DNA from: Candidatus Tepidifontimicrobium thermophilum
GTDB lineage: Bacteria; Sysuimicrobiota; Sysuimicrobiia; Sysuimicrobiales; Sysuimicrobiaceae
Assembly: GCA_031296405.1 (NCBI GenBank)
Contig: JAVKKH010000003.1
Coordinates: 62,001 to 126,000 of the forward strand
Direction: 5' to 3'
Length of the DNA stretch: 64,000 nucleotides
The translations under genes and the position numbers were made by a program. The notes under the pieces are model-generated. The model saw nothing but the letters and a program-made list of their open reading frames with translations. It made no database searches and had not been told where the DNA came from. Below, piece after piece: positions 54,675 through 63,072 of the stretch; position 1 is the stretch's first letter, and the number at the start of each line of letters is the position of its first letter.

Positions 54675-56024
54675 TTGCGTTCCCACACGCTTCGCGTCCT
54701 GATTCTAGTTGCCCTCGCGGTGGCGTCGTTCCAGGTGGTGTTCCAGCCCGTGCGCCTGGACGGGTGGCGGCCCGCCTGGCAACCGCCGCAGCCGCGCCTG
54801 CGGCTCGGGCTGGACCTCCAGGGTGGCACCCGCATCGTCCTCGAGGCGGAACGGCGCCCCGGCGTGGAGGTCACCGCGGACAAGGTGGACGCGGCTATGC
54901 GGGTCATTGAGAACCGCATCGACGCTCTGGGCGTAGCGGAGCCGCTGCTCCAGCGGCAGGGACAGGACCGCATCATCGTGGAGTTCCCGGGACTGCAGGA
55001 CCCGCAGCGGGCGAAGGAGCTGATCGGCCGCACGGCGCTGCTGGAGTTCGTGGACACCGACCACCAGAGCCTGCCCCGGGGCGCGGAGTGGCTGCCGGAC
55101 AACCGGCGCGTGCGCCTCCCGGACGGACAGGTGGTGTCCCTCCCGAAGAAGGTGGTGGTCACCGGCGCGGACCTGCGGGACGCCCGCGCGGAGTTCGACC
55201 AGCAGTCCCTGCAGTGGCTGGTGCGGTTCCGGTTCGCGGGAGAAGGGGCCAGGAAGTTCGAAGACCACACGGGCCGCAGCATCGGCGAGTACCTGACCAT
55301 CGTGCTGGACAACCGGGTGCTGTCCAGCCCGGTGATCCGGGCCCGCATCCCGGGGGAGGGTGTGATCGAGGGCAGCTTCACCGCGGACGAGGCGCGGGAC
55401 CTGGCCATCCTGCTACGGGGTGGTGCGCTGCCCGTGCCCGTGCGGCCGGTGGAGGAGCGCACCGTGGGCCCCACCCTGGGGCGGGACTCCATCGACCGCA
55501 GCCTGCGGGCGGGGTGGATCGCCGCGGTGGCGGTGGTCCTGTTCGTGACCGCCTACTACCGGCTGCCGGGCTTCCTCGCTTCGGTGTCCCTGTCCGTCTA
55601 CGCGCTCCTGGTGCTGGCCCTCTTCGCGGGCCTGGGGGCTACCTTGACCCTCCCGGGCCTCGCGGGTCTGATCCTCAGCCTGGGGATCGCGGTGGACGGG
55701 AACGTGATCATCTTCGAGAAGCTGAAGGAGGAGCTCCGGGCGGGCAAGACCCTCCGGGCCGCCATCGCCGCGGGGTGGCGGCGCGGCCTCGTGACCATCC
55801 TGGACTCCAACGTGACCACCCTGGTGGGTGCCGCGGTGCTGCTGTGGCTGGGCACCGGCCCCATCCGGGGCTTCGCGGTCACCCTGACCCTGGGCGTGCT
55901 GGCCTCCATGTTCACCGCCATCGTGGCCACCCGGTGGCTGGTGGAGCTGTGCGCGGACCTGGGGCTCGCTCACAACCTGGCGCGGGTGGCGGACCTGCCG
56001 CGCCGGCCGGAGGTGGCGGCGTGA
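54675..56024 (+). CDS. secD: Protein translocase subunit SecD
   Basis: The 449-residue membrane protein starts with one helix, followed by RLGLDLQGGTRIVLE (the D1 signature), a periplasmic P1 domain, and five C-terminal helices with LGIAVDGNVIIFEKLKEEL. SecD works with SecF to pull exported proteins using the proton gradient. The start is TTG 54675 with GGGAG upstream. The stop overlaps secF. Confidence 0.94.
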   Translation: MRSHTLRVLILVALAVASFQVVFQPVRLDGWRPAWQPPQPRLRLGLDLQGGTRIVLEAERRPGVEVTADKVDAAMRVIENRIDALGVAEPLLQRQGQDRIIVEFPGLQDPQRAKELIGRTALLEFVDTDHQSLPRGAEWLPDNRRVRLPDGQVVSLPKKVVVTGADLRDARAEFDQQSLQWLVRFRFAGEGARKFEDHTGRSIGEYLTIVLDNRVLSSPVIRARIPGEGVIEGSFTADEARDLAILLRGGALPVPVRPVEERTVGPTLGRDSIDRSLRAGWIAAVAVVLFVTAYYRLPGFLASVSLSVYALLVLALFAGLGATLTLPGLAGLILSLGIAVDGNVIIFEKLKEELRAGKTLRAAIAAGWRRGLVTILDSNVTTLVGAAVLLWLGTGPIRGFAVTLTLGVLASMFTAIVATRWLVELCADLGLAHNLARVADLPRRPEVAA

Positions 56025-56977
56025 AGGCCTGGGACCTCATGGGCAACCGCCGGTGGCTGTACCTGCTGTCCGCCGGGATCGTGCTGGCCAGCGTGGTGGC
56101 GATGGCGATCCAGCCCGCCCTGGGCCGCCCGGTGCTGAACTGGGGTGTGGACTTCACCGGCGGTACCCTGATCACCCTGCGCTTCCAGGACCGGACGGTG
56201 TCCACCGGCCAGGTCCGCGCGGCCCTGCAGCCCCTCGGGCTCGGGGAGGCGATCATCCAGAAGGTCCACGAGACGGGGGACGTGTCCGTCCGCACGCGCC
56301 ACCTGGAGCCTGAGGAGCGTCGGAGGCTGGAGCAGGCGGTGCGGGAGCGCGTGGGGCCCTTCACGGTGCTGAGCGTGGACGACGTGGGCCCCAAGATCGG
56401 ACGGGAGCTGCGGAACGTGGCCATTCTGGGGGTGGCGGTAGGGCTGGCGCTGCAGGTGGTGTACGTCTCCCTGAGGTTCCGGTCCGTGCGGTTCGCCCTA
56501 GCCGCGGACGTCGCCCTGCTGCACGACCTGCTGCTGGTCCTCGGGGTGTTCGCCCTGACCCGGGCGACCGTGGACAGCAGCTTCGTGGCGGTCCTGCTGA
56601 CGGTGGTGGGCTACTCCATCAACGATACCATCGTGGTGTTCGACCGGGTCCGGGAGAATTTGCAGTTGCGGACGCGGGAGCCGTTCCTGCAGCTGGTGAA
56701 CCGCAGCGTCCTGGAGGCCCTGGTCCGTTCCATCAACACGGGGCTGACGACCCTGCTGGCCATCGGCAGCGTGTACCTGTTCGGAGGCCCCACGGTCCGG
56801 GACTTCGCCCTGGGCCTCACGGTGGCAGTGCTCACCGGCGGGTGGTCCTCCGTGGGCGTGGCAAGCCCCCTGCTGGTGGACATGACCCTGTGGGCCGAGC
56901 GCAGGGCCGGCCAGGCCGCTGTCCAGCCCACGGCTCAGCCCGCGCGGGCGGCGGCGAGCCGGCGGGGCCGCGCCTAG
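56021..56977 (+). CDS. secF: Protein translocase subunit SecF
   Basis: The 318-residue protein has NWGVDFTGGTLITLRF near the N-terminus and six helices. The conserved segment is VVGYSINDTIVVFDRVREN. GTG 56021 overlaps the secD stop (GTGA), so the two subunits are made together. The C-terminal tail is alanine/arginine-rich and not conserved. Confidence 0.94.
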   Translation: MKAWDLMGNRRWLYLLSAGIVLASVVAMAIQPALGRPVLNWGVDFTGGTLITLRFQDRTVSTGQVRAALQPLGLGEAIIQKVHETGDVSVRTRHLEPEERRRLEQAVRERVGPFTVLSVDDVGPKIGRELRNVAILGVAVGLALQVVYVSLRFRSVRFALAADVALLHDLLLVLGVFALTRATVDSSFVAVLLTVVGYSINDTIVVFDRVRENLQLRTREPFLQLVNRSVLEALVRSINTGLTTLLAIGSVYLFGGPTVRDFALGLTVAVLTGGWSSVGVASPLLVDMTLWAERRAGQAAVQPTAQPARAAASRRGRA

Positions 56978-57061: not shown

Positions 57062-57373
57062 ATGCGCCTTCTGGCCGGGGTGGTGTTCGTGCTGGCGGTG
57101 CTGTCCGTGGTGTTGGTTCTCAGCAACGCGGGCGCCTCGGACCGCTACCCCCTCCGTCTGGCAGCCTGGACGGTCCTGCACGACACCCTGCCCGCCTTGC
57201 TGGTTGCGGTCCTGTTTGCAGGCGCTGCCATCGCGGGCCTGCCCCTGGGCGTAGCGAACTGGTGGCTGCGTAGACGCGTGGCCGGCCTGGAACGCGAGCT
57301 GCGGGCGGTCCGCCAGGCGAGGGCTGACGCCGCGGCTGAACGGCCGGGCTCCGGGGAGGGCATGCCCAAGTGA
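57062..57373 (+). CDS. LapA-domain membrane protein
   Basis: The 103-residue protein has two transmembrane helices separated by a short loop, then an amphipathic, coiled-coil-like tail (RRRVAGLERELRAVRQAR), the LapA/YciS layout. In proteobacteria the family helps lipopolysaccharide regulation; in Gram-positive relatives its role is unknown. The stop overlaps the recJ start by four bases. A TAGACT box is at 57044-57049. Confidence 0.75.
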   Translation: MRLLAGVVFVLAVLSVVLVLSNAGASDRYPLRLAAWTVLHDTLPALLVAVLFAGAAIAGLPLGVANWWLRRRVAGLERELRAVRQARADAAAERPGSGEGMPK

Positions 57374-60300
57374 AGGGCTACGGGTGGCCCCGCACCCGGC
57401 CCTGGTCCTTCTGCCCTCTCCATCCGCACCGCGACGGCCTCGTCCGCGAGCTGGGCCTGCTTCCGGCCACCGCGCAGGTGCTGGCCGTGCGGGGCCTCGG
57501 GGATCCTGAGACTGCAGACCGGTTCCTCCGGGCACCCCTGGAGACCCTCACCCCCCCAAGCCGGCTTCCCGGAATCCCCGACGCCGCCGCGCTCGTCTGG
57601 CGCGCCGCCCGGGAAGGCCGGCGCGTCACCGTTTACGGCGACTTCGACGCGGACGGGGTGTGTTCGGTAGCCCTCCTGGTACGCGGGCTTCGGGCTCTGG
57701 GGCTGGACGTGGACTACTACGTACCGCACCGCCTGCGGGAAGGGTATGGGCTGAACGCGGAAGCGGTGCGCGCGCTGGGGGAGTCGGGGACGCAACTGCT
57801 GGTCACCGTGGACTGCGGGATCGGAGCCCTGGCGGAGGTGGCTCTGGCCAAGCACCTGGGGATGCAAGTGGTGGTGCTGGACCACCACGAGCCGCCGCCT
57901 GTACTGCCGGACGCCGACGTGGTGGTGGATCCGAAGATCCCCCAAAAGCCCTACCCGTTTCGCGGCTACTGCGCTGCGGGGTTGTCCTGGCAGCTTGTGG
58001 CCGCGCTTCGGGAACTTGCGGGCGCGCCGGCCACCGAGGACCTGCTGGAGCTGGCCGCGGTGGGTACCGTGGCGGACGTGGTGCCCCTGGTTGAGGACAA
58101 CCGGGTGGTGGTGCGCTGGGGTCTTGGGCGCCTGCCCCACACGCCTCTGGCGGGCCTGCGGGCGTTGCTGCAGAACGCAGGCCTTGCGGGCCCGGCGAGC
58201 GCGGACGACGTGGCGTGGCGGCTGGCCCCCCGGCTGAACGCCGCGGGCCGCGTGGACACCGCGCAGGCGGCCTTGCGGCTTTTGCTGACGGACGACCCGC
58301 AGGAGGCCTCCGAGCTGGCCTCCGAGCTGGAGCGGCACAACGCCCACCGGCAGCGCCTGCAGGACGCGGCTTTGGGTCAAGCGCTGGCGGCGGTGGAGGA
58401 AGACGGGCTACTGGACCGGCCCGGCATCGTGGTGTGGGGCCAGGACTGGCACCCGGGCGTGGTGGGTCTCGTGGCGGGCCGGTTGAGGGAGGCCTTCTGC
58501 AGGCCTGCAGTGGCTCTGGCGGTAGAGGGCGAGGTGGCACGGGGATCGGCCCGCGGCGTACCCGGGCTGGACCTGGTGGACGTGCTGGGGGAGTGTGGGG
58601 AGCTGCTGGACCGGTTCGGCGGACACGCCTCCGCCGCGGGGATGTCACTTCCCGCACGGCACCTACTGGAGTTCCGCAGGCGTTTCGAGGAGGCGGTGGC
58701 GTCTCGCATCCCGGCCGAGCTGCTGGTGCCCGAGGTCGTGGTGGAGGCGCAGGTGGGCCTGGAGGAGGTGACCGACCGGCTCCTGGAGGAGCTCGCCCTC
58801 TTGGAGCCTTTTGGAGCCGGCAACCCGAGGCCGGTGCTGGCCGCGAGGGGTCTACAGCCCCTGGAGGTAGGTCTTTGGGGCGCGGGCGAGCACCTGTGGG
58901 TCCGGCTGTGGGACGGCGCGAGGATCCAGGAGGCGGTCGGCTTCGGGCTGGGGGAGTGGGGCGAGCTGCTGGCCTTTGTCCAACCGGACCTGGACATCGC
59001 AGGGTGCCCCGAGCGCCACCCGTGGGAGGAGGGAGCATTCCGCTGGGTCCTGGAAGACCTGCGGGCACCCGGGCTGGAGCTCGGCCGGGTGCTGGCGGAC
59101 ACGCCGTCCTTGCTGAGGCGCCTGCTGGATCGGGGGGACGACTACCTTGCCGGCGCTTACCGCGGCGTGGAAGCCCGACCCGCGTTCTTCACCAAGGTGG
59201 TGGGCGTCAGTTTTGAAGGCCGGCAGGACGTGGTGGCGCAGCTCACGCCCGGGGAGGAAGTCCTGCTGAGGCGCGAACCGGCAAACCCCTTCGACCCCCA
59301 CGCGGTCCAGGTGGTCCGCTCGGACGGCTCCGTGGTGGGCTACCTGAACTCGGCCCTGGCCGGCCGGCTGGCACCACGCCTGGACCGGGGAGCCCGGTAC
59401 CGAGCGACGGTGACGGCGGTCACCGGCGGCGGCGACCGAAACCTGGGCGTGAACCTCCGGGTGGAGCAGGACGCCCCACAGCCGCGGGGCGGGTGGGTCC
59501 GGTCCGCGCTGCGCTCCTCAGGCCCAGACCTTGACCAGGTCCAGAAGCTCCTTTGGGGAGGAGACCGGCTTCCGGAGGCCCTGAGGCCCGCACTGGACCA
59601 GGTATTGGCCGGCGGGCGGGCTGCTGTGGCCTGTGCCCCTCGGAGGGAGTCGTCCCGCCTGGTGTTGCTGGCACTGGCGGCGCACGGCCTCCGCGACCGT
59701 CCCGCATTTCACGTGTCGCCCCTCGCGGAACTGGCGGACGGCCGGTGGCAGGCGTGGAGGGGTACGCTGGAGCGCCTGGGGCTGCGAGTGGGACGGCTGC
59801 ACGGGCTGGTGGGACGCAGGGAGCTGGACGAAGCCGAGCAGGCCCTGGAAGCCGGCGGCCTGGACGTGGTGTTCACCACTTCCACGTACGTGTCCCGCCG
59901 GCCTGAACTGCTGGCCGCCGGCCTGCTGGTGGTGGCAGAGGGCTGGGTGGAGGCGGAGCTGCCGTCGGAGCTGGGAGCGTGTCCGGGTCCCGTGCTGTGG
60001 GTGGTCTGGGACCCCGGGGCGAACCCGCGGGGCTGGGAGGTCTTCGGCCTTCCCGATGCCCGGACGGCGGTCCGGGTGGTAGACGCCAGACGCCGGGGAC
60101 AGCCGCAAGAAGCGTGGGTGGGGCAGGTCCCCACGGTCCTGTTCAGCCCCGGGCCTGCTTCTGCCCTGGAGGTGGCGCGCTCGTTGTCCGCCCTCGGTCA
60201 GGTGGCGTACGACCACCCGGGCCTTCCGGGCCCCGTGCGGGAGACCCTGGCGCAGCTTTTCAGCCAGGGGAAGTTGGCGGCTCTGGTCTGCGGTGGTCCC

Positions 60301-60858
60301 GCTCCGGAAGGGTTGCGCGGGGCCAGGCGGCTGGTGTGGTTGGGTCCTACCGCTAAGGAGGTCTTTCTCCAGCAGGCTGCTGGCGGCGTGGAGTCGGGAG
60401 GCCAGGTCACCCTGGTGCTGGCTTTCGGGCAGGAGGACTTGCGCCGCGCCCGCGCCGAGTGGGAGAGCCGGTACCCCAGTCGCCAGGCCCTGGCCGCGGT
60501 CTACCGGCTGCTCCGGGACCTGGGCGGTGAGGTGCGGTGGCCGGACGACCACCTGGCCCGCCGGGTCCACGAAGCCACCGGGCTGGACCCCCGGCTGGCA
60601 GTGCCCGCTGCCTTCCACGTACTGGAGGCCGCGGACCTGCTGCGGAGGGAGCGGGTGGCGGGAGGCTGGCGGGTGCAGCTGTGCGCGGCGGAGGGCCGGA
60701 AGGAGCTGGGCTCCGTCCTGCGTTTTGCCGAGGGGGAGCGCAGCCGGGCGGCCTTCGACGCCGGGAGCCGCTGGCTGGCGAGCTGCGCCGCGCTGGAGGT
60801 GCTAGAGCAGGTGGCCGCGGGCTCGGTTGCCGCGCGCACAGGCTCGGGTGCAGGATAA
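57370..60858 (+). CDS. recJ: RecJ-type single-strand exonuclease with HIRAN domain and long degenerate helicase-like C-terminus
   Basis: The 1162-residue protein begins with the DHH nuclease: YGDFDADG (about 89-96), VTVDCG, DHH (171-173), and a DHHA1 part with RFGGHASAAGM. An OB-like segment follows. Residues about 603-698 form a HIRAN domain (FFTKVVGVSFEGRQD, REPANPFDPHAVQV, VGYLNSALA), known to bind DNA 3' ends. From about 715 to 1010 the order recalls a RecQ/DEAD helicase, but the P-loop is degenerate (APRRESSR) and the DExH box reads AEGW. A winged-helix-like part ends the protein. Typical RecJ has 550-800 residues. GTG 57370 overlaps the upstream stop. Confidence 0.9.
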   Translation: MKGYGWPRTRPWSFCPLHPHRDGLVRELGLLPATAQVLAVRGLGDPETADRFLRAPLETLTPPSRLPGIPDAAALVWRAAREGRRVTVYGDFDADGVCSVALLVRGLRALGLDVDYYVPHRLREGYGLNAEAVRALGESGTQLLVTVDCGIGALAEVALAKHLGMQVVVLDHHEPPPVLPDADVVVDPKIPQKPYPFRGYCAAGLSWQLVAALRELAGAPATEDLLELAAVGTVADVVPLVEDNRVVVRWGLGRLPHTPLAGLRALLQNAGLAGPASADDVAWRLAPRLNAAGRVDTAQAALRLLLTDDPQEASELASELERHNAHRQRLQDAALGQALAAVEEDGLLDRPGIVVWGQDWHPGVVGLVAGRLREAFCRPAVALAVEGEVARGSARGVPGLDLVDVLGECGELLDRFGGHASAAGMSLPARHLLEFRRRFEEAVASRIPAELLVPEVVVEAQVGLEEVTDRLLEELALLEPFGAGNPRPVLAARGLQPLEVGLWGAGEHLWVRLWDGARIQEAVGFGLGEWGELLAFVQPDLDIAGCPERHPWEEGAFRWVLEDLRAPGLELGRVLADTPSLLRRLLDRGDDYLAGAYRGVEARPAFFTKVVGVSFEGRQDVVAQLTPGEEVLLRREPANPFDPHAVQVVRSDGSVVGYLNSALAGRLAPRLDRGARYRATVTAVTGGGDRNLGVNLRVEQDAPQPRGGWVRSALRSSGPDLDQVQKLLWGGDRLPEALRPALDQVLAGGRAAVACAPRRESSRLVLLALAAHGLRDRPAFHVSPLAELADGRWQAWRGTLERLGLRVGRLHGLVGRRELDEAEQALEAGGLDVVFTTSTYVSRRPELLAAGLLVVAEGWVEAELPSELGACPGPVLWVVWDPGANPRGWEVFGLPDARTAVRVVDARRRGQPQEAWVGQVPTVLFSPGPASALEVARSLSALGQVAYDHPGLPGPVRETLAQLFSQGKLAALVCGGPAPEGLRGARRLVWLGPTAKEVFLQQAAGGVESGGQVTLVLAFGQEDLRRARAEWESRYPSRQALAAVYRLLRDLGGEVRWPDDHLARRVHEATGLDPRLAVPAAFHVLEAADLLRRERVAGGWRVQLCAAEGRKELGSVLRFAEGERSRAAFDAGSRWLASCAALEVLEQVAAGSVAARTGSGAG

Positions 60859-60861
60859 GGT

Positions 60862-63072
60862 ATGACCACCCGGCTGGACGCGGGTGTGCCGCAGGAAGTG
60901 GGACTGCCCGGGGAGATGCAGCGGCTAGTGGAGCGGGTCCGGGAGGTCCAGCCGCAGGCGGACCTGGACCTGCTCAGGCGGGCGTACGCCTTCGCAGTCC
61001 GGGCCCACGAGGGGCAGTTCCGCAGGTCCGGGGAGCCCTACGTGATGCACTCCGTGGCGGTGGCCCACATCCTGGCGGACCTCCGCATGGACACCACCAC
61101 CGTGGCCGCGGCCCTGCTGCACGACGTCCCGGAGGACACCCCGCAGAGCCTGGAGGAGGTGCGGCGGGAGTTCGGCGACGAGATCGCCACCTTGGTGGAC
61201 GGCGTCACCAAGCTGGGCAAGATCCAGTGGCGGAGCCAGGAGGAGAAGCAGGCGGAGAACCTCCGGAAGATGTTCCTGGCCATGGCCAGCGACGTCCGGA
61301 TCATCCTGATCAAGCTGGCCGACCGGCTCCACAACCTGCGGACCATCGACGTCATGCCCCCCGAGCACCAGCGCCGCAAGGCCCGGGAGACCCTGGAGAT
61401 CTACGCCCCCCTGGCCAAGCGCCTGGGGATCGGGCAGCTGCAGAACGAGCTGGAGGACCGGGCCTTCGCCATCCTGGAGCCCGAGGCGTACCGGGAGATC
61501 ATGGAGTCCCTGCGGGAAGCGCAGGCCCAGCAGGAGGAAGTCCTCCGGACCATCCAGGAGGAGCTGTACCGGGAGCTGAACCGGGCCGGCATCCGGGTGG
61601 AGCGGCAGCACATTACCGCCCGGCCCAAGCACGCCTACAGCATCTACCGGAAGATGCAGCGGCCCGCTTACCAGGGCCAGGGCATCGCCCGGATCTACGA
61701 CCGGCTCGGGGTCCGGGTCATCGTGGACGACGTGAAGGACTGCTACGCGGCCCTGGGGGTGGTGCACTCCCTCTGGCGGCCCATCCCCGGGGAGTTCGAC
61801 GACTACATCGCCAACCCCAAGCCCAGCGGGTACCAGTCCCTGCACACCACCGTCATCTACCGGGGGGTTCCCCTGGAGATCCAGATCCGCACGCACCGCA
61901 TGCACCAGGAGGCGGAGTACGGGATCGCGGCGCACTGGCGGTACAAGGAAGGCAAGGCGGGGGCGCGGGACCGGGCCTTCGAGGAGAAGCTGTCCTGGCT
62001 GCGGCAGCTCCTGGAGTGGCACCAGGAGATGCAGGACGCCCAGGAGTTCATGCGGTCGGTGAAGCTGGACCTGTTCCGCAACGAGGTGTTCGTGTTCACG
62101 CCGAAGGGCGACGTGGTGGACCTGCCCAGCGGCGCCACCCCCGTGGACTTCGCCTACCGCATCCACACGGACGTGGGCCACCGGTGCGTGGGGGCCAGGG
62201 TGAACGGGCGCCTGGTGCCGCTCAGCTACCGGCTCCACAGCGGGGACATCGTGGAGATCCTGACCTCGAAGACCTCCACGGGGCCGAGCCGCGACTGGCT
62301 GGAGTTCGTGGTCACCAGCAACGCCCGCACGAAGATCCGCCAGTGGTTCCGCAAGCAGCAGCGCGAGGAGAACGTGGCCCGCGGGAAGGAGATGCTGGAG
62401 CGGGAGCTGCGGCGCCTGGGGCTGCTGTCCACCCTGCTGCGGGCGGACCGGGTCAAGGAGGCGTGCGAGAAGCTGCAGGTGGCCACGGAGGAGGACCTGT
62501 ACGCGGCCCTCGGCAACGGGGACCTGACGCTCCTGCAGGTGGTCCACGCCCTGGGCGGACCCCCCGCGCCCGCCTCCGAGCCGGCAGCGCCGCAGGCGCA
62601 GCCCGCCACCTCGCCCGCCCGGGGGCTGCGGGTGCGGGGCGTGGACAACGTGCTCATGACGTTGGCCCGCTGCTGCATGCCGCTGCCCGGGGACGACGTG
62701 GTCGGGTACATCACCCGCGGCCGCGGGGTGACCATCCACCGCCGCGACTGCCGGAACCTGGACTACCTGCGGCAGCACGGGGAGCGACTGCTGGAGGTCG
62801 AGTGGGAGCCGTCGCCCGACGGCAGCTACCCGGTGGAGATCCAGGTGGAAGCCCTGGACCGGGTGGGGTTGCTGAAGGACGTGCTCAGCGCGGTGGCGGA
62901 CACCCGCACCAACGTCCTGTCGGTGAACGCCCACGTGCGCCGGGACAAGGTCGGCGTGATCCACCTGACCGTGGACATCCGGAACGTGGGCCAGCTCACC
63001 GCGGTGCTGCAGCGGATCGGCAAGCTGCCCGACGTGTACCGCGTGGAACGGCTGACCGCAGGGGGCCGGTAG
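60862..63072 (+). CDS. Bifunctional (p)ppGpp synthetase/hydrolase (RelA/SpoT homologue)
   Basis: The 736-residue protein has an HD hydrolase domain (YVMHSVAVAHILADL and LLHDVPEDT), a synthetase domain with YQSLHTTV and the RIYDRLGVRV segment, a TGS domain (VFTPKGDVVDLPSGATPVDFAY), a zinc-finger-like RCCMPLPGDDVVGYITRGRG part and a C-terminal ACT domain. The hydrolase motif HDVPEDT keeps the key ED pair, so both activities are likely. The ATG is four bases after the recJ stop. Confidence 0.94.
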   Translation: MTTRLDAGVPQEVGLPGEMQRLVERVREVQPQADLDLLRRAYAFAVRAHEGQFRRSGEPYVMHSVAVAHILADLRMDTTTVAAALLHDVPEDTPQSLEEVRREFGDEIATLVDGVTKLGKIQWRSQEEKQAENLRKMFLAMASDVRIILIKLADRLHNLRTIDVMPPEHQRRKARETLEIYAPLAKRLGIGQLQNELEDRAFAILEPEAYREIMESLREAQAQQEEVLRTIQEELYRELNRAGIRVERQHITARPKHAYSIYRKMQRPAYQGQGIARIYDRLGVRVIVDDVKDCYAALGVVHSLWRPIPGEFDDYIANPKPSGYQSLHTTVIYRGVPLEIQIRTHRMHQEAEYGIAAHWRYKEGKAGARDRAFEEKLSWLRQLLEWHQEMQDAQEFMRSVKLDLFRNEVFVFTPKGDVVDLPSGATPVDFAYRIHTDVGHRCVGARVNGRLVPLSYRLHSGDIVEILTSKTSTGPSRDWLEFVVTSNARTKIRQWFRKQQREENVARGKEMLERELRRLGLLSTLLRADRVKEACEKLQVATEEDLYAALGNGDLTLLQVVHALGGPPAPASEPAAPQAQPATSPARGLRVRGVDNVLMTLARCCMPLPGDDVVGYITRGRGVTIHRRDCRNLDYLRQHGERLLEVEWEPSPDGSYPVEIQVEALDRVGLLKDVLSAVADTRTNVLSVNAHVRRDKVGVIHLTVDIRNVGQLTAVLQRIGKLPDVYRVERLTAGGR

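Follow-up and report, generated by a model that had tools for sequence, protein, structure and literature searches.

The window examined here is a stretch of 64,000 nucleotides from contig JAVKKH010000003.1 of Candidatus Tepidifontimicrobium thermophilum, and it contains an open frame of 1162 amino acids (aa) at positions 57370..60858 of the + strand that is a recJ fusion gene, encoding a RecJ nuclease followed by a HIRAN domain and by a RecQ-type helicase module without working motifs. We consider it probable that this gene represents one form of a RecJ-HIRAN-RecQ resection enzyme, built of three parts, that has decayed to differing degrees, that its dead helicase module and its HIRAN domain serve to position RecJ, and that Pfam family PF10141 is a further-decayed form of the module. 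At the level of sequence, the homology, architecture, motif states and shared gene neighbourhood of this predicted enzyme are established, as laid out below.

The nuclease part passes the curated cut-off of the NCBIfam recJ model TIGR00644 (464.2 bits over residues 33-552; cut-off 396.9). On the + strand, it comprises a DHH domain at aa 85-233 (57622..58068; Pfam PF01368, E 1.2e-22), a DHHA1 domain at aa 353-444 (58426..58701; PF02272, E 1.3e-12) and the RecJ OB domain at aa 459-553 (58744..59028; PF17768, E 7.6e-15). The DHH motif residues D91, D93, D95, D148 and D171-H172-H173 are intact, D236 lies just past that domain, and the GGH motif of DHHA1 (H419) is intact as well. Twelve RecJ motif positions, covering the catalytic residues of DHH and DHHA1, are identical in 42 of 42 aligned RecJ sequences. 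Judged by these motifs, the window protein is a RecJ in which every catalytic residue examined is preserved, and the gene is predicted to encode a 5'-3' single-strand exonuclease with an intact active site.

A Pfam scan of the window protein alone finds no family past residue ~700 and no helicase family. When 30 tails from the window's phylum were aligned and used as a profile (A1), the top matches in the set of solved structures were RecQ proteins, with 4tmu at E 1.2e-21 over 340 positions of the profile, human RecQ4 at 3.7e-19 and E. coli RecQ at 2e-18. Individual members of A1 match the Pfam families Helicase_C (24/30) and DEAD (16/30). The AlphaFold2 model of residues 576-1162 is well packed and confident, with a predicted local distance difference test score (pLDDT) of 92.2 and a predicted template modelling score (pTM) of 0.91, and the best Foldseek matches of the tail model in the PDB are WRN, RECQL5 and D. 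radiodurans RecQ (E ~1e-11). These matches have low full-chain TM-scores (0.23-0.41 on the query), probably owing to differing angles between the two lobes, HIRAN and the winged helix, and it is the E-values that carry the result. From the comparison of A1 with RecQ structures, from the model and from Foldseek, a degenerate RecQ-type RecA1-like lobe was placed at aa ~720-895 (59527..60054, + strand; pLDDT 92). It is followed on the same strand by a RecA2-like lobe at aa ~896-1034 (60055..60471), which keeps the motif YxH..LP (YHAGL in RecQ), and by a C-terminal winged-helix module at aa ~1035-1150 (60472..60819), the part held in common with PF10141 (ssDNA-exonuc_C).

Several motifs that a working helicase would use are altered. 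The Walker A position (aa 756-762; 59635..59655, + strand) reads APRRESS where intact relatives have GTGRGKS, motif II (aa 855-859; 59932..59946, + strand) reads VAEGW against VDESH, and motif VI of the RecA2-like lobe reads QQAAGGVESGG in place of QQSGRAGRDG. None of the 30 aligned proteins of the window's phylum has the Walker A Lys, the DExH His or the first Arg of motif VI, whereas each of the three is found in nine out of nine intact relatives. With neither the Walker A Lys nor a DExH box nor the Arg residues of motif VI, the tail should be ATPase-dead, and the contrast with the relatives marks it as a RecQ-derived pseudo-helicase. The tail is thus like RecQ helicases (TIGR00614/TIGR01389; 4tmu, 1oyw, 4q48) in having two RecA lobes in RecQ order and unlike them in lacking these motif residues, and we do not count it as a RecQ helicase. 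A first-pass annotation made from the DNA letters alone had described the tail as ~450 residues in RecQ order without the P-loop Lys and the DExH box; the profile and structure searches, with RecQ at their top, bear this description out, as does the confident two-lobe RecQ-like fold predicted for the C-terminus.

The intact relatives come from another phylum, that of genome G094, in which a full-length profile search over 120 sampled species found nine genomes whose RecJ matches end to end. These nine proteins (L199-L207; 1197-1254 aa) are RecJ-HIRAN-RecQ fusions with all helicase motifs present: Walker A is GTGRGKS (ATGRGKS in L207), motif II is VDESHH (LDEAHH in L206 and L207), and TATA (TATL in L207), TSAFGEGID and QQSGRAGRDG or near variants of the latter two are all found. 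One of them, L207, matches DHH, DHHA1, OB, HIRAN, DEAD and Helicase_C in a single protein. They differ from the RecQ family in that RecQ models cover only their two lobes, the C-terminal region having its own winged helix, and in the four fusions tested these models reach 138-194 bits and not the family cut-off of 219.8. In four of the nine genomes (G544, G512, G593, G539), no RecQ-level match besides the fused RecQ was found. When compared as profiles, the intact tail and the window tail match at E 1e-63, and the linker VDRRG, the C-terminal motif RRDL..SLRY.EG and the position of HIRAN in the middle are common to all fusions. The intact-motif fusions of other lineages had escaped the first-pass annotation. 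They also disprove the idea that the fusion is limited to one phylum, which had come from the observation that the other-phylum RecJ proteins among the matches listed end near profile position 550; those matches cover part of the whole, with one or two genomes sampled per group, and are therefore no evidence of the fusion's absence elsewhere. As to the distribution of the fusion, which the first-pass annotation had proposed to trace, it extends beyond the window's phylum, with HIRAN present in L199-L207 of the second phylum.

The HIRAN domain lies at aa 606-691 (59185..59442, + strand; Pfam PF08797, E 6.5e-14) and scores well above the Pfam cut-off (52.0 against 24.7 bits), so that the domain predicted from the letters at ~603-698 was correctly recognized, with boundaries right to within a few residues. 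Human HLTF HIRAN structures match it at E 5.5e-6. Within the phylum, the motif TKV.GVTFEGRQ...L..G..L.L.REP.NP.DPHA.....DG...GYL is conserved to the same degree as the RecJ core. Similar to the HIRAN of HLTF and Rad5, the domain stands beside a superfamily 2 (SF2) helicase module and has the core motif R-P-NP-D--A--V----G---G-L; in contrast, its partners are a RecJ nuclease and RecQ-type lobes, whereas those of HLTF/Rad5 are SNF2 and RING. Among 250 other-phylum genomes, HIRAN was found in 18, mostly within short open reading frames (ORFs) and in four cases in longer ones, which could conceivably include a RecJ fusion. In two members of the window's own family, L012 (G006) and L020 (G004), the tail extends ~540 aa past the core as compared with ~600, and the HIRAN match starts from profile position 16-17, a shortening which suggests that erosion is still under way inside this family.

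The fusion is conserved at full length through the phylum: it is present in 28 of 28 genomes of at least 90% completeness in the window's class and phylum (43 species, 22 genera), and most aligned rows are free of internal stops, which rules out an assembly or frame artefact. Nonsynonymous to synonymous substitution ratios (dN/dS) are lowest in HIRAN in each pair compared (0.08-0.26; against the core, 0.08 vs 0.16, 0.13 vs 0.20 and 0.26 vs 0.31 in three pairs). The tail evolves faster than the core and still has ratios of 0.09-0.52, with 0.21-0.52 in the RecA1 lobe. HIRAN and tail are under purifying selection (0.08-0.52). At a threshold of E 1e-15, the window's genome gave no match to the RecQ model TIGR00614, and 18 of the 20 phylum genomes tested had no RecQ-family match. 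The only tested genome of the phylum with a RecQ above the cut-off is G021, where it lies in an open frame of 1800 aa.

Tails in further states of decay were found in other RecJ proteins. In L208, HIRAN is still present and the helicase is broken, and L209, L219, L220 and L226-L228 have two dead lobes without HIRAN; the group profile of these two-dead-lobe forms, which also holds L212 and L215, matches A1 at E 1.5e-39. In the phylum of genome G234, RecJ is ~1000 aa long, and one subset has a dead two-lobe tail (E 1.5e-20 against A1). A second subset there has a weak relation to the RecQ-derived tails (E 1.4e-4, probability 53%), and the tails of L185-L198 and L109 of this phylum are perhaps extremely decayed two-lobe forms. 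In the phylum of genome G081 (alignment A3) the tail consists of lobe 2 and the winged helix only; hhalign matches A1 to A3 at E 3e-31, and another hhalign comparison of the window-phylum tail with other RecJ tails gave E 5e-15. Members of A3 match Helicase_C in 11 of 20 cases (best 6.8e-12) and PF10141 in 7 of 20 (best 5.7e-6).

The series reaches the Bacilli, whose Paenibacillus- and Bacillus-like tails match A1 by hhalign at E 5e-7 (four sequences) to 2e-8 (nine sequences), with column-shuffled, reversed and unrelated profiles as controls all at E > 0.1, and the shuffled and reversed ones at E > 0.3. One of these tails, L106, matches PF10141 above its cut-off. An alignment joining such tails with A3 members (A6) hits residues 569-755 of 8y30, the structure of S. 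aureus RecJ (E 2.5e-18), and with the AlphaFold2 model of its first row Foldseek finds 8y30 first (1.4e-12). These comparisons support homology of PF10141 with lobe 2 and the winged helix of the window tail, as far as sequences can tell. The first-pass annotation had suggested that the C-terminal part corresponds to the extra domain of Firmicutes RecJ; the correspondence emerges from profile-profile comparison through intermediates (A3 and the Bacilli tails), while no direct PF10141 match was found in the window protein. The Bacillus/Staphylococcus RecJ (PF10141; 8y30) is like the window protein in its DHH-DHHA1-OB core, its place near relA and its homologous C-terminal domain, and unlike it in having neither HIRAN nor a RecA1 lobe and in its shorter tail (~190-290 aa). 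Most simply, PF10141 would be a further-decayed form of the window's tail, and the unexplained tail of Bacillus/Staphylococcus RecJ the remnant of a built-in RecQ-like helicase, a direction of change that we infer. The Bacilli tail also has a weak Foldseek match to D. radiodurans RecJ (E 0.03, prob 0.97), whose C-terminal domain (CTD) may be another remnant of the RecQ-like tail.

The proposed function draws on known partners. RecQ unwinds DNA, the 5' strand displaced in this way is degraded by RecJ, and SSB is stimulatory (PMC4846377). The E. coli and Deinococcus RecQ and RecJ of the RecF pathway have two activities like those joined here and act jointly in resection (PMC4846377), and differ in being separate proteins; in D. 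radiodurans, no evidence of direct RecJ-RecQ contact was reported (PMC4846377). Judging by this biochemistry and by HLTF HIRAN, the intact form would be a single polypeptide in which a 3'-5' RecQ motor unwinds, RecJ trims the displaced 5' strand, and HIRAN could hold the 3' end during unwinding. The module of the window form, with its predicted fold, its conservation and the purifying selection on it, would most likely work without ATP as a platform binding junctions, SSB or duplex. Together with HIRAN, this platform may place RecJ at 3'-ended single-/double-strand junctions such as gaps and stalled forks, and unwinding, if needed, would be supplied by another helicase. The first-pass annotation suggested that the fusion with HIRAN may direct the nuclease to gaps or stalled forks, which agrees with all observations.

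Alternatively, the dead RecQ part could be debris, with the lobes surviving as a spacer that carries a useful winged helix, for instance for SSB docking as in Deinococcus RecJ, an explanation that we regard as possible but somewhat doubtful. The D. radiodurans RecJ CTD does bind the C-terminus of SSB (SSB-Ct) (PMC4846377), the Bacilli tail is weakly linked to D. radiodurans RecJ by the Foldseek match above, several lineages have lobe 2 and the winged helix without RecA1, and conservation within the window's phylum is lowest in the RecA1-like lobe (mean 0.33-0.49, as compared with 0.6-0.7 for HIRAN and most of the core). Debris would not, however, be expected to match at full length across both lobes in all 28 complete genomes, and even the RecA1 lobe retains its dN/dS of 0.21-0.52 and a well-packed model. 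We prefer the reading of a RecJ positioned by HIRAN and an ATP-free module.

We would like to note several points that weigh against this reading and the history attached to it. In HLTF, the HIRAN pocket holds a single-stranded DNA dinucleotide between Y72 and Y93 (PMC4666394). This pair is half kept in the window HIRAN, with Phe at the Y93 position and, unlike HLTF, no aromatic residue at that of Y72, whose equivalent lies outside the phmmer match and was placed by hand alignment; binding of 3' ends is thus uncertain. Compared with the core, the lobes of the tail diverge more quickly (mostly 25-40% identity inside the phylum), and the module could therefore be weakly constrained. Regarding PF10141, the match of L207 to its C-terminal half stays below the cut-off (22.2 against 26.4 bits), and direct Foldseek comparison of the Bacilli tail with helicases is weak (E 0.025 and above), so that this link rests on sequence profiles via intermediates. 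Finally, the RecJ core tree does not show a single gain of the tail, although it does not reject one either, with p-AU (approximately unbiased test) 0.81 when tail-less RecJ proteins are constrained together.

In that tree the window's phylum forms one clade (99*), and the deeper branches are mostly unsupported. The simplest reading is one gain followed by repeated decay, an order of gains and losses that the core tree does not prove. We lean towards an ancestral RecJ of many Firmicutes-like bacteria that was a one-polypeptide resection machine, with a 5' nuclease, a 3'-end-binding HIRAN and a RecQ motor, which would have stayed intact in some lineages, left the PF10141 remnant in Bacillus/Staphylococcus and others, and had its motor switched off in the window's phylum. 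Independent histories, with one RecQ-RecJ fusion event in the window's phylum, another in the phylum with intact motifs and an origin of its own for PF10141, seem improbable to us. The intact forms and the window's phylum do stand apart on the core tree with tail-less RecJ in between, but a single origin is not rejected, nor is a tree with the intact forms as one clade (p-AU 0.63), the deep branches are unsupported, the domain order with central HIRAN, the linker and the C-terminal motif are alike in all, the tails are as similar as the 1e-63 profile match indicates, and the gene neighbourhood is alike. That this is an ordinary RecJ whose unrelated C-terminal extension resembles a helicase by chance is almost certainly wrong: Pfam alone gives it no helicase family, but the A1-RecQ matches, the AlphaFold2 and Foldseek results, the hhalign tail comparisons with their shuffled controls and the multi-domain match of L207 refute it.

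In textbooks, the helicase/nuclease pair of the RecF pathway is RecQ and RecJ. That the two occur naturally fused, with HIRAN between them, directly signals that they act as a unit, and makes it possible to measure helicase-nuclease coupling in a single protein. The fusion also offers an origin for PF10141, whose predicted fold would be a decayed helicase lobe beside a winged helix, and the graded series of intact, dead two-lobe and one-lobe forms may reveal in what way a helicase module that no longer uses ATP serves a nuclease. A search of open-access titles, abstracts and terms found no literature that joins RecJ with HIRAN, describes a RecJ-RecQ fusion or explains PF10141; due to this limit to open-access literature, an earlier description is possible.

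In the window, the fusion gene is flanked on the + strand by syntenic neighbours whose order is the same in relatives: secD (54675..56024; TIGR01129) and secF (56018..56977; TIGR00966) upstream, and relA/spoT (60862..63072; TIGR00691), which begins 3 bases past the recJ stop codon and is followed by fabI, downstream. At the other-phylum loci examined (G544, G591, G525, G512, G539), relA adjoins or is near recJ in five of five, and secD/secF lie upstream where found (G544, G591, partly G525). Given this shared recJ-relA neighbourhood, the recJ genes of these loci are most likely positional orthologues of the window recJ. The fusion gene starts with GTG and overlaps by 4 bases with the stop of an upstream ORF of 103 aa (57062-57373) located between secF and recJ. 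The product of this ORF has a weak likeness to the LapA domain (22.3 bits, below the Pfam cut-off of 28), and the ORF is kept in the close relative L002.

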